A stretch of 34,044 nt of DNA from a virus: positions 1 through 34,044 of IMG/VR virus record IMGVR_UViG_3300030388_001881. One strand, given 5' to 3'. Shown here one piece after another: positions 3,421 to 27,814 of this stretch (position 1 is the stretch's first letter; each line of letters begins with the position of its first letter). The notes under the pieces are model-generated. The model worked only from the letters and a program-made list of their open reading frames with translations. It did not search any database and was not told the origin of the DNA. The position numbers and the translations under genes were made by a program.

Positions 3421-4543
3421 TCATAACCTCCAAGATTGATTGTGCTATGTAATAAGGTATTTGTGGTACGACAGCATTACCTAACGATTTAAGTCGGTGT
3501 GTCCTGTCGGGTACCCCATCAGCCACTCTACCCACGTCGGGTTCAAGGTTCCACCAATTTTGGGCTGACTCTTCAGAGCTATTCTCTCTTCCAGTTTGCC
3601 CCTGTCCGTTCCCCGTGCTTGTATGTTGGATGTCTTCTCCGACATTGCTTTCGATGCTCGAGGCGTTGGCCATAGTCTCGGTTCTTTCACTTGGTCCTGG
3701 AGACGTATCTGTATTTGTTGACCACTCGGTCTTTTCAGATGTCCCTGGTCCAGTGCTTTCTGTATCCCTGGTAAATTGCTCCCTCCAGCTGCGGCGTCTG
3801 GCGTTCTCCACATCACTTGTTGACACAAAGGAGGTTTCTGTCCCCCTCCTGGATGTTTCTTCCGTGGCTTCTGTATGTTGTGGCGATCGAAAGCTGTTGG
3901 AGTGGACCACATCGGCATGTTCGTTACGGGTTTCCCGTATTGCACTTGCTCCGCTAGAGTTCCTGGTGGTACTGTCGTTCTCCCTATGCTCTTTCTGTAA
4001 GCTAATCTCTTCTCCATTGACTCTTTTGATCTGTTGTGAATCATAGTTGCGCTGGGAGTAAGCCACTGTCCAGATTCTTTCCCTTTGGTGGTTCGCCCCG
4101 ATGCTAGAAGCTGAAACACTAAACGTCCTGAGAGAGTAGCCTTGACTTTCCAAGTCCTCTTGTACGGCGTCAAGACCAAGTTTAATGTGTCCACTAACGT
4201 TTTCTCCAATAACCCAAGTCGGTCTGAGTTCTTTGATAATTCTAAAATACTCTGGCCAGAGGTGTCTCGGATCTTCAACGCCTTTTTTAAGTCCAGCGAT
4301 GCTGAAGGGTTGGCATGGGTATCCACCTGTGATGATGTCGATGGAATCAATTCCATCTGCTTTGAGTTTGTCATATGTTAGCTCCTTTATATCTTTGTAT
4401 ACTGGTACTTCTGGCCAGTTCTTGTTTAATACTTTTGTGCAGTACTTATCTATCTCGCAAAAAGCGACTGTCTTAATTTTTTGTGTTGCTTCTAATCCTA
4501 AAGCAAATCCACCTATTCCACTAAATAAATCTAAATGTCTCAT
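3413..4543 (-). CDS. DNA (cytosine-5) methyltransferase
   Basis: A 376-residue m5C methyltransferase transferring methyl from S-adenosylmethionine to cytosine in DNA. Motif I LDLFSGIGGF (4-13), the catalytic PCQPF (76-80, Cys77), ENV (114-116), QRERIW (153-158) and the C-terminal LKSLGNAVVPQ (351-361) are all present. Residues about 165-330, where the target-recognition domain should be, are a Ser/Thr/Glu/Arg-rich stretch without obvious fold. This is explained by a second gene using the same DNA in another frame (3481-4374). GC is locally raised (29/60 at 3661-3720 against 20/60 at 4741-4800). Start joins the primase stop as TAATG. It probably protects phage DNA from host restriction; no cognate restriction gene is seen. 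Confidence 0.93.
   Translation of the reverse strand: MRHLDLFSGIGGFALGLEATQKIKTVAFCEIDKYCTKVLNKNWPEVPVYKDIKELTYDKLKADGIDSIDIITGGYPCQPFSIAGLKKGVEDPRHLWPEYFRIIKELRPTWVIGENVSGHIKLGLDAVQEDLESQGYSLRTFSVSASSIGANHQRERIWTVAYSQRNYDSQQIKRVNGEEISLQKEHRENDSTTRNSSGASAIRETRNEHADVVHSNSFRSPQHTEATEETSRRGTETSFVSTSDVENARRRSWREQFTRDTESTGPGTSEKTEWSTNTDTSPGPSERTETMANASSIESNVGEDIQHTSTGNGQGQTGRENSSEESAQNWWNLEPDVGRVADGVPDRTHRLKSLGNAVVPQIPYYIAQSILEVMNA
3481..4374 (-). CDS. Nested gene inside the methyltransferase gene (WVEWLMGYP / WxTP protein)
   Basis: A 297-residue reading frame lies wholly inside the methyltransferase gene on the same strand, in a different frame. I judge it real for three reasons. First, its ATG (4372-4374) has a canonical Shine-Dalgarno AAAGGAG at 4388-4382, 7 nt upstream. 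Second, it ends in LNPTWVEWLMGYPTGHTDL (277-295), a sequence I recognise from many phage proteins found beside or overlapping Dcm genes. Third, it carries four spaced WxTP motifs at 104-107, 156-159, 189-192 and 235-238, each followed by a small/Asp-type pattern. LTPYKRTWKVKATLSGRLVFQL (68-89) also resembles the same family. Function is unknown; methylation-associated or target-recognition accessory is a guess. Being all or partly a frame-shadow is the alternative, but its length and Shine-Dalgarno argue against that. Confidence 0.75.
   Translation of the reverse strand: MTNSKQMELIPSTSSQVDTHANPSASLDLKKALKIRDTSGQSILELSKNSDRLGLLEKTLVDTLNLVLTPYKRTWKVKATLSGRLVFQLLASGRTTKGKESGQWLTPSATMIHNRSKESMEKRLAYRKSIGRTTVPPGTLAEQVQYGKPVTNMPMWSTPTAFDRHNIQKPRKKHPGGGQKPPLCQQVMWRTPDAAAGGSNLPGIQKALDQGHLKRPSGQQIQIRLQDQVKEPRLWPTPRASKAMSEKTSNIQARGTDRGKLEERIALKSQPKIGGTLNPTWVEWLMGYPTGHTDLNR
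4382..4388 (-). promoter_or_regulatory. Internal Shine-Dalgarno for the nested gene
   Basis: On the minus strand the sequence AAAGGAG sits 7 nt before the ATG at 4374-4372. In the methyltransferase frame these bases encode Lys-Glu within DIKELTYD. Motif and spacing are both ideal, which decides the start of the nested 297-residue gene. Confidence 0.75.
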
Positions 4544-6072
4544 TAATACGCCTCCTCCTCACTAAAGTCTTTCTTACTTAATTTATATTCTGATTCTAAA
4601 ATTCCTATTGGTATTTTCCAACAATGTTCGGAATTACTATTTACTTTAAATTTTGCTGTGCTGCCTTGAAACTCTGCAAACATTTTATATTGTTCAGAGT
4701 CAGATGCTTTAGCAAATCTTTTAGTTTTTAAAAAATCTCTAAATGCTTGCGGTTTAAAAAAGAAATATCCTTTCTCATGCTCAAAAACCATTCCTTGTAA
4801 AACATCTTGTCTGTCTTTTGCTCCCTTATTATTTTCTAAGAATATTTGTAATTGATTTAAGAATTGACCTTTTGCTGTTACCTCTCCTGGAAGTTGTACA
4901 AAATCATCGGCTTGCATATTTTTTAGTAAACTGTCTACCATGTCCGACCAAATAGCAGGAGCCATGGGACGCGGGCTTTCGTTCGCCTGCGCTATACATG
5001 CTTTACGATATTCAGCGTGACTTGATAATTGATCTAACGTTAGAATAATAACTTTACCATTGTGTGTTAATTCATAAATAGGATTATCTGATTCCCATTT
5101 CTTTAGTCCACTAATTTCATTGGTTGCTGAGTTTCCTATGCCAAACTTCTGAGATTGACATTTAATTTTTTCACATACAATTTTAAACATTGGTTCTTCA
5201 CAGCGATAAAAATATTTTTTATCCTCTACTTGTTTAAAGATTGTTAATACTTCTCTACTTGGAAGAGGTGGTGTAAAATATTTAGAGTTATAGTAATCTA
5301 ATTTTTCTTCTAATTTTTCAGGAAATCTTTCACGCAAATAAATTCCTAATTGAAAGAGGGACGTGTTCCGTGATCCTTCTGGAAAACCATCTGATGCTAG
5401 TGTTATTAGGCATGGAGGAGCTCCTTTAAAATCATCATTCTTTTTTTGGGTAATTGTTTTTTCGATAACCACCTTGTTTAATTGCGATACGACTTTTGTT
5501 TCATAGTGTTGTATAAAACTACTTAGTTCAATCAATGCAGTACCTTCGTCATCAAACGCATACCTTGTGGGAAATTCTGGGTGGTTATAAGGAAGATTTA
5601 AAAAGTTTCCTGTACCTTTTGAGTTCAATTCAATTTGCTTTGGAAATATCTCACAGTCACCGTAGCCTAACCATACGGCTATCTCTTTTAATTTTATTTG
5701 CATATCTTTTGCAAGGACTGGTTCGCGTACAAATAAAAATATATGAGCTCCCCCACTTTTTGATTTACACACAACTAGGGGTATTTTCTTTGCGACAATT
5801 TTTTTAATTAATATTTTATAATCAAACCCGTCATACGTATCGACATCGATAGCACCCCATTTACATTGATTGTTATCATCAATAGGAATGATACCAAGAG
5901 AAGGTTCTTTGCCCTCCAGGTGATTGTTCCAATTATTTATAGTAATATGTTCTTTAACAAGCCAGGATCGTCCTTCTAGCTTACCCGCCTCATTCTTTTC
6001 GCGGCTTTGCGTTTGACCGTAAGCTCGATCTAAGCCACTAAATATCTCAATAAACTTCGTCTTGTCGTCCAT
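4543..6072 (-). CDS. Archaeo-eukaryotic-type (AEP/TOTE-like) DNA primase
   Basis: A 509-residue protein whose N-terminal half matches the archaeo-eukaryotic primase fold used by phages. WGAIDVDTYD (72-81) holds the catalytic metal-binding Asp-x-Asp (76, 78). CKSKSGGAHIFLF (102-114) is the Ser/His nucleotide-binding motif. EIFPKQIEL and GNFLNLPYN (141-163) are the typical third motif region. The pattern is like the primase domain of TOTE-type proteins. A helical region (RNTSLFQLGIYLRERFPE, about 235) follows, and then a C-terminal half with no helicase motif. It would make primers for PolA. It is followed by the methyltransferase through a TAATG junction and preceded by a hairpin at 6092-6117. 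Confidence 0.85.
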   Translation of the reverse strand: MDDKTKFIEIFSGLDRAYGQTQSREKNEAGKLEGRSWLVKEHITINNWNNHLEGKEPSLGIIPIDDNNQCKWGAIDVDTYDGFDYKILIKKIVAKKIPLVVCKSKSGGAHIFLFVREPVLAKDMQIKLKEIAVWLGYGDCEIFPKQIELNSKGTGNFLNLPYNHPEFPTRYAFDDEGTALIELSSFIQHYETKVVSQLNKVVIEKTITQKKNDDFKGAPPCLITLASDGFPEGSRNTSLFQLGIYLRERFPEKLEEKLDYYNSKYFTPPLPSREVLTIFKQVEDKKYFYRCEEPMFKIVCEKIKCQSQKFGIGNSATNEISGLKKWESDNPIYELTHNGKVIILTLDQLSSHAEYRKACIAQANESPRPMAPAIWSDMVDSLLKNMQADDFVQLPGEVTAKGQFLNQLQIFLENNKGAKDRQDVLQGMVFEHEKGYFFFKPQAFRDFLKTKRFAKASDSEQYKMFAEFQGSTAKFKVNSNSEHCWKIPIGILESEYKLSKKDFSEEEAY

Positions 6073-26770: not shown

Positions 26771-27814
26771 TTATTGAAACTTATATCTAATGATTACAAC
26801 GCCACTTCCAGAAGCCGCTGGGTGATAGGTACTTGGACTTGGTAGACCAGCTCCGCCACCGCCACCTAGACCGTTAGTACCAGCAGTAGCTGCTGCAGCA
26901 CCTGGACCAGAACTTTTAGCTCCACTTCCACCACCGCCAGCTCCGCCAGCTCCAGCAGGTCCACCTGGACCACCTTGTAAACTACCGCCACCGCCACCAG
27001 CATAAGTAACCGCACTTCCTGTAATACTGTTTGGAGAACCAGCTCCGCCAGCTCCTGCTGTGTGAGGAGATTGACTTCCGTTTCCACCAGCCGCACTAGC
27101 TCCTCCGCCACCGCCACCAGCATCAACAGACCCAGGATTAGAATTTCCACCAGCGTTTCCTTGTGGAGGACTTGTAGGAGGAGTATTTCCTGCTCCGCCA
27201 CCGCCATTTTTAGATCCACCGCCACCCGATGCTCCTGCACTTCCAGTTCGGGGCGATTCGAATGTTCCTCCGCCACCGCCACCAGCAGATGTAATACTTG
27301 AAACTGTTGAAACTCCTCCGTTTGCTCCCGCACCGAAACCACTTGGATTACCAGGAGCTCCCGCAGCACCTACCGAAATAGGATAACCTTGAGCACTAAC
27401 TGATAAACCTCCAGTTGCAGGGCTTGGAAAATTTGTTCTATATCCTCCAGCTCCACCACCACCACCTTGAGCAGAACCGCCCGCACCAGCTACCGTTAGA
27501 AACTCTATGCTATTAGAACCCGCAGAATTTCCTGCGTCATTAACAGTGAAAGTTGCAGCTGAAGTAAATGTATGAACTTTGTAGTCACCACTTGTTGCTA
27601 TTGAACCACCACTTGCTGATATGAATGATGCATTAACAGCGCCATAATAATCAGAAAAAGTAACTGTTCCTGATGTTGGAATACTTGAATTAGTAGGTAC
27701 GTTAGGAACAAGAGGACCTGATCTGTAATATTCACTTATAGAATGGGGAGTTGAACCTCCAAATTCGTCTACAAGATCTTGTATTGATACTGCTCCACTG
27801 GAAGGGACTGCCAT
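26771..27814 (-). CDS. Glycine-rich tail fibre / receptor-binding protein
   Basis: 347 residues. The N-terminal 65 residues (SGAVSIQDLVDEFGG...SGTVTFSDYYGA) are the attachment domain seen in many marine phage fibres. Residues about 85-320 are a glycine-rich domain with repeated runs of five or six Gly (SAQGGGGGAGGY, AGGGGGGTF, AGGGGGGAS). The end VVIIRYKF closes it. Such domains form receptor-binding polyglycine-II bundles in other phage adhesins. The DNA has four exact copies of one GC-rich 14-mer. It lies between S74 fibre and accessory genes. Confidence 0.8.
   Translation of the reverse strand: MAVPSSGAVSIQDLVDEFGGSTPHSISEYYRSGPLVPNVPTNSSIPTSGTVTFSDYYGAVNASFISASGGSIATSGDYKVHTFTSAATFTVNDAGNSAGSNSIEFLTVAGAGGSAQGGGGGAGGYRTNFPSPATGGLSVSAQGYPISVGAAGAPGNPSGFGAGANGGVSTVSSITSAGGGGGGTFESPRTGSAGASGGGGSKNGGGGAGNTPPTSPPQGNAGGNSNPGSVDAGGGGGGASAAGGNGSQSPHTAGAGGAGSPNSITGSAVTYAGGGGGSLQGGPGGPAGAGGAGGGGSGAKSSGPGAAAATAGTNGLGGGGGAGLPSPSTYHPAASGSGVVIIRYKFQ
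26853..27283. repeat. Dispersed exact 14-mers coding for poly-Gly
   Basis: CCGCCACCGCCACC occurs exactly at 26853-26866, 26985-26998, 27105-27118 and 27270-27283; a near copy lies around 27193-27206. On the coding strand it reads GGTGGCGGTGGCGG. Codon choice is identical in every copy, although glycine has four codons, which suggests homogenisation by recombination. Confidence 0.8.

Follow-up and report, generated by a model that had tools for sequence, protein, structure and literature searches.

The virus record analysed here, a stretch of 34,044 bases referred to as the window, carries a C5-cytosine DNA methyltransferase gene (alpha) flanked by a helicase gene and a primase gene. A second ORF (beta) lies entirely within the alpha ORF, on the same strand and in the +1 frame. 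On the basis of sequence comparisons, we consider it highly probable (roughly 0.88) that alpha and beta constitute one phage m5C methyltransferase made of two polypeptides, in which beta would supply WxTP recognition modules and motif IX. A preliminary description of this DNA had reported the nested frame of 297 codons with its coordinates, as well as an AAAGGAG sequence 7 nt before its ATG, and we recovered all of these as described. It had also placed the WxTP motifs opposite VAYS, VVHSN, VENA and MANA in the alpha frame, and LNPTWVEWLMGYP opposite VGRVADGVP; these coincidences were likewise right. The features of both genes are listed in Table 1.

Table 1. Positions of the alpha and beta genes and their parts in the window
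Feature	Position	Strand	Remarks
alpha: C5-cytosine DNA methyltransferase, 376 aa	3413..4543	-	motifs I-VIII and X, without motif IX; matches PF00145, TIGR00675 and the M.HhaI large domain
alpha linker, residues 166-330	3554..4048	-	low-complexity S/T/E/R/N sequence evolving near neutrality; disorder predicted
alpha motif X, GNAVVPQ, residues 355-361	3461..3481	-	G355, N356 and P360 invariant in the alpha alignment
Shine-Dalgarno (SD) of beta, AAAGGAG	4382..4388	-	7 nt ahead of the beta ATG; codon choice conserved there
beta: 297 aa, proposed subunit for target recognition and motif IX	3481..4374	-	+1 frame, nested gene
beta N-terminal block, residues 1-103	4066..4374	-	overlaps alpha IV-VIII; conserved in the beta alignment; omega_beta 0.32-0.53
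beta module 1, WLTP at 104, residues 104-155	3910..4065	-	
beta module 2, WSTP at 156, residues 156-188, 33 aa	3811..3909	-	missing as one clean unit in L089 and L010
beta module 3, WRTP at 189, residues 189-234	3673..3810	-	
beta module 4, WPTP at 235, residues 235-276	3547..3672	-	
beta motif IX, LNPTWVEWLMGYP, residues 277-289	3508..3546	-	nearly invariant; one-chain and AquI-like relatives have it in the same position with respect to motif X

The alpha protein matched PF00145 (1.4e-46), TIGR00675 and phrog_363. Motifs I, IV (PCQ), VI (ENV), VIII (QRER) and X (GNxVxP) were all located and are nearly invariant in the alpha alignment. In a profile comparison with the PDB, M.HhaI was matched over its large domain only, together with a weak match at motif X, and AlphaFold predicted a fold for residues 1-165 and near the C-terminus. 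By the M.HhaI profile match and AlphaFold, motif IX and a folded target-recognition domain (TRD) are absent from the alpha chain. The linker at residues 166-330 consists to 78% of S/T/N/E/Q/R/G/D/K. The preliminary description had pointed out that the methyltransferase frame lacks a folded TRD in the nested stretch, which agrees with the AlphaFold pLDDT of less than 50 over most of residues 182-345. It had explained the missing fold as the price of overprinting; we read the fold instead as being located in the beta chain.

Beta combines an N-terminal block, four WxTP modules and motif IX. Among 91 different betas, we distinguished 70 module architectures (orders) and 84 module clusters, with zero to six modules (median module, 41 aa) ahead of motif IX; shared clusters occur at differing positions in this set. 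The window and L089 differ by exactly one 33-aa module. Judging from these comparisons, each module is a unit of gain, loss and exchange. An array of several interchangeable modules between motifs VIII and IX, the feature by which a multispecific phage m5C methyltransferase is recognised, is present here. The sequence WVEWLMGYP, which had been regarded as a mere phage motif, is best read as motif IX of an m5C methyltransferase. AlphaFold prediction of beta alone (50 sequences) gave a pLDDT of 59 and a pTM of 0.28, and Foldseek with this low-confidence model returned no useful fold match in the PDB. In nine of the 91 betas, WPTP modules resume after motif IX, several of them past the alpha stop; two to five extra WPTP modules follow motif IX in L016, L017, L020, L044, L072, L099, L021 and L101, and those of L016, L017, L020, L044, L072 and L101 extend beyond the stop codon of alpha. 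Modules located past the alpha stop cannot be caused by the methyltransferase frame.

Relatives with other arrangements of the same parts were also found. In L167, L202, L225 and L240, alpha stops after motif VIII and a +1 ORF carries the modules, motif IX and motif X; the betas of L167 and L202 have WPTP modules. L127 (1371-2806) has three ORFs, corresponding to motifs I-VIII, to modules plus motif IX, and to motif X. In mycobacteriophage Geralt (L221) and its kin, motifs I-VIII, several LPTP modules, FPEWMMGWPAGW and motif X are read in one frame. The same nearly identical modules are found in the catalytic frame of mycobacteriophage L236 and in the +1 second ORF of its sibling L240; the one-chain L236 and the two-ORF L240 are 98% identical in their catalytic DNA and 97% identical in their IX-X DNA. 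The +1 frame of L133 reads CPTLTTPKGGGH...ITPKLAEKIMGFPAGW, which is canonical-looking (CPTLTT...ITPKLAEKIMGFPAGW). This ORF matched a C5-methyltransferase family (1.7e-4) in the stretch ahead of motif X, and tblastn of it against phages yielded one weak match. A module HMM built from +1-frame betas only matched 33 ORFs of these relatives and 0 shuffled versions. From the placement of the modules and motif IX in the four kinds of relative, beta is most likely the VIII-X insert of a C5-methyltransferase, comprising the recognition region together with motif IX. An earlier guess that the nested product assists target recognition fits these data.

The loci were also scanned with motif patterns. 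Most of them, 145 of these with modules in +1, read motif IX in +1 and motif X in frame 0; roughly 25 have both motifs in frame 0, and roughly 7 have both in +1. The counts rest on the motif patterns, and the small ones are approximate. In the one-chain mycobacteriophage-type methyltransferases of L231-L235, L237, L242, L248, L252 and L257, the in-frame LPTP modules are preceded by a +1 ORF with two or three LPTP modules. In a tree of 91 catalytic domains, the nested state occurs in phages and in bacteria of many phyla, and lineages have switched state repeatedly (no fewer than 10 changes among the four states). The one-chain mycobacteriophage enzymes branch inside the nested ones with modest support in this tree, which is poorly rootable.

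Beta matched phrog_1008 (4.9e-21), and profile searches of Pfam, NCBIfam and the PDB with beta found no family. In the PHROG library, phrog_1008 and the alpha family phrog_363 are both named just 'DNA methyltransferase', with the relation between them unstated. A beta relative is encoded in 586 candidate stretches of viral contigs. The preliminary description had proposed checking whether nested homologues always overlap methyltransferase genes. They did so in the +1 frame in 130 of the 131 viral cases examined, the single exception, probably L124, having a shifted frame, and all 80 cellular matches fetched, which come from many phyla, overlap a C5-methyltransferase gene (one-per-species bacterial genomes, found by WVEWLMG). 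Searching from the methyltransferase side, we observed a +1 ORF in nearly every relative whose variable region is complete. No free-standing beta was seen among the viral and cellular homologues examined. Beta is annotated as 'g49 internal gene' in Paenibacillus phage Diva and is present without annotation in Lacticaseibacillus phage R9.1. Near the cellular copies, none of the 18 neighbouring ORFs tried was a partner restriction nuclease, a weak result given that many were without a match; the matches obtained were to an adenine methyltransferase, phage replication proteins, a resolvase and a sulfate-assimilation gene.

A further beta subfamily was observed in L227-L229, with LNPAHSRWLMGYP or similar instead of WVEWLMGYP; these betas are nested in the +1 frame in enterobacterial and Burkholderia phages and accompany SPPCQ/SCPCQ-type methyltransferases. 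In the methyltransferase frame of a Synergistaceae locus (L152:1143-2643), an HNH-type endonuclease-like stretch (CEICG...HHHDY...CxxCH), perhaps a mobile insert, lies between motif I and the beta region.

An SD sequence of at least 5 nt precedes 62 of 91 unique viral beta homologues. The alpha Lys-Glu pair upstream of the beta start is encoded by AAG in 50/50 and GAG in 42/50 sequences, against 29% AAG and 34% GAG elsewhere in alpha; these counts come from related sequences and carry no formal P value. By this codon choice, the beta start signals are under selection, and the Lys-Glu bias upstream of the ATG argues for independent initiation as opposed to frameshifting. Other overlapping frames were seen in the window. 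Two open frames antisense to the methyltransferase (143 and 126 aa; 3615-4046 and 4185-4565, plus strand) are likely due to chance, and another nested ORF of 167 aa with a GTG start (26866-27369, minus strand) lies in a different frame of a 347-aa ORF (26771-27814).

To analyze selection in the two frames, the changes in 33 independent pairs were classified according to their consequences in each frame, and the test was repeated on three alignments (beta-based, nucleotide and alpha-protein-based). Over alpha motifs IV-VIII, omega_alpha was 0.17-0.27 and omega_beta 0.32-0.53; by this test, both proteins are under purifying selection here, alpha more strongly. Over the modules and motif IX, the beta-based alignment gave omega_beta of 0.17-0.39 and omega_alpha of 0.61-1.44. 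The corresponding omega_beta was 0.07-0.20 in the nucleotide alignment and 0.25-0.52 in the alpha-based one, with omega_alpha of 0.48-1.36. As estimated in this way, beta is constrained over this region and the alpha frame is nearly free. Alignment bias was rejected as the cause, because the nucleotide and alpha-protein alignments led to the same conclusion. For alpha over the modules and motif IX, dNN/dSN was 1.1-1.4 and dNS/dSS was about 0.5-0.6; the latter value suggests that the linker may have some constraint left and may not be a pure tether. Thus the comparison of synonymous and nonsynonymous change that had been called for revealed protein-level constraint in both frames. The proposal that one protein arose by overprinting the other holds as far as overprinting is concerned and fails as to its one-way direction: the beta N-terminal block lies on alpha IV-VIII, and the alpha linker is passive over the modules and motif IX.

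These observations can be arranged in a model for the enzyme. Alpha would fold as the catalytic domain, with motifs I-VIII followed by X; in C5-methyltransferases, the catalytic chain binds AdoMet and the flipped cytosine. Translation of beta would start in the +1 frame at a separate SD and ATG within the alpha gene, and beta would provide the target-recognition region, a row of interchangeable WxTP modules of about 41 residues. Motif IX of beta would dock this region onto the alpha catalytic domain, with the WxTP modules presented to DNA. The alpha frame between motifs VIII and X would be a disordered tether, its sequence dictated by beta, that leads to motif X. Gain, loss or swapping of modules would probably alter or broaden the methylated sites, in the manner of the one-chain multispecific Bacillus phage methylases, so that phage DNA could be hidden from shifting host restriction. 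We infer that both chains are expressed and form a complex, that one module equals one recognition domain and that the enzyme has an anti-restriction role. The anti-restriction partner suggested in the preliminary description is unsupported other than as a part of the methyltransferase.

We considered whether the open nested frame could be a by-product of the methyltransferase sequence and composition, as alternate frames are often open in GC-rich genomes and conserved methyltransferase motifs would by force conserve part of the +1 frame. The window, however, has a GC content of 37%, and the longest +1 open run in the alpha gene, 298 codons, was reached by none of 10,000 synonymous recodings. 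When the gene's own synonymous codons were shuffled 5000 times, the longest run averaged 112 codons and peaked at 264; when codons were drawn 5000 times from the usage of the phage, it peaked at 212. The +1 runs in eight other window genes were 23-111. Moreover, beta rather than alpha is the constrained frame over the modules, and WPTP modules extend past the alpha stop. A chance open frame is ruled out by the recoding null and the selection tests, and the probability left to this explanation is negligible. Together with the overlap of the homologues and the conservation of the SD, the recoding null supports the view that the nested frame is a real, conserved gene with its own start in +1. A different route to the same protein would be +1 ribosomal frameshifting from alpha into the beta region. 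In relatives of the L167/L202 type, a +1 shift after motif VIII would yield the full order I-VIII-TRD-IX-X, and in L137 and L152 motif I is in the beta frame. Against this route, constraint on the beta frame is already seen upstream, over IV-VIII (omega_beta 0.32-0.53), the SD codons are kept beyond amino-acid need, and in the window type a frameshift would lose motif X; we regard it as very unlikely.

A role of beta as a separate accessory or anti-restriction protein merely sharing the locus might be suggested by the phage setting and by its N-terminal block, which is conserved and without a recognised fold. This is highly improbable, as beta never occurred apart from a C5-methyltransferase in the 80 cellular matches and in enzymes of the L236 type the catalytic domain shares a single polypeptide with the modules, IX and X. 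It is also conceivable that beta is needed with alpha for its motif IX but that the WxTP modules are spacers or sites for other partners, with specificity residing elsewhere. AlphaFold and Foldseek recognised no TRD fold in the modules, their number ahead of motif IX varies from 0-1 to 6, and the M.EcoHK31I literature assigns the TRD to the large subunit. On the other hand, modules fill the VIII-IX interval in one-chain relatives, purifying selection acts inside shared modules while swapping takes place between them, and alpha keeps no conserved folded region over the module stretch, so that we hold a spacer role to be unlikely. A methyltransferase of two polypeptides with its recognition modules in beta remains our preferred reading.

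Natural two-chain m5C methyltransferases include M.AquI (CYCGRG) and M.EcoHK31I (YGGCCR); in M.EcoHK31I, the small subunit contributes only motif IX, the large one has motifs I-VIII together with X, and the predicted TRD was assigned to the large subunit rather than to the small one (PMC3404938). Compared by motif layout, the window resembles M.EcoHK31I in having motifs I-VIII and X in the large chain and IX in the small chain. Unlike in M.EcoHK31I, the recognition modules are assigned to the small chain, they form an array of four, and the system is phage-borne and without a recognised partner restriction enzyme. In 1995, Lee reportedly described the M.EcoHK31I small subunit as encoded inside the large gene in a different frame; such nesting of the small chain, which we observed in the window, is presumably shared by the two systems. 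M.EaeI is also a two-polypeptide m5C methyltransferase. M.AquI is similar in layout to L167, L202, L225 and L240 (I-VIII / variable region, IX, X), but its small chain contains IX as well as X, whereas in the window motif X is back in the alpha frame and beta is fully nested.

One-chain m5C methylases with several target-recognising domains are the subject of titles cited in PMC8936443, for Bacillus phages SPR, phi3T, rho11 and H2 and for M.phiBssHII. Compared by architecture, the window system is like the multispecific Bacillus methylases in being phage-borne and having several orderable modules, and unlike these single-chain enzymes in having its array in a second reading frame. The recognition domains of multispecific Bacillus phage methylases are short. 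That an m5C methyltransferase can consist of two chains is known. In the open-licence papers searched, however, we found no description of module arrays in a nested beta subunit of a phage; the second-frame module array, the assignment of recognition to the nested chain and the breadth of the arrangement appear to be undescribed in these papers.

Split m5C methyltransferases, including M.EcoHK31I, have already been used for targeted methylation (PMC3439449). The module arrays found here are material for a code relating WxTP modules to methylated motifs, via methylome sequencing. The two-chain reading accounts for phage 'DNA methyltransferase' or 'hypothetical' proteins that apparently have no recognition domain, and it suggests that annotation discarding nested ORFs strips the targeting half from many m5C methyltransferases. 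The overlap is also a clean natural case of overlapping genes whose constrained frame switches along the overlap. With somewhat better than even confidence, we propose that widespread heterodimeric DNA methyltransferases store their specificity as a shuffled module array in an alternate frame of their own catalytic gene, with two-way overprinting. If so, the beta N-terminal block would have been born on catalytic motifs and the alpha tether on recognition modules, and a module swap would rewrite specificity and inert linker together, with catalysis unharmed.
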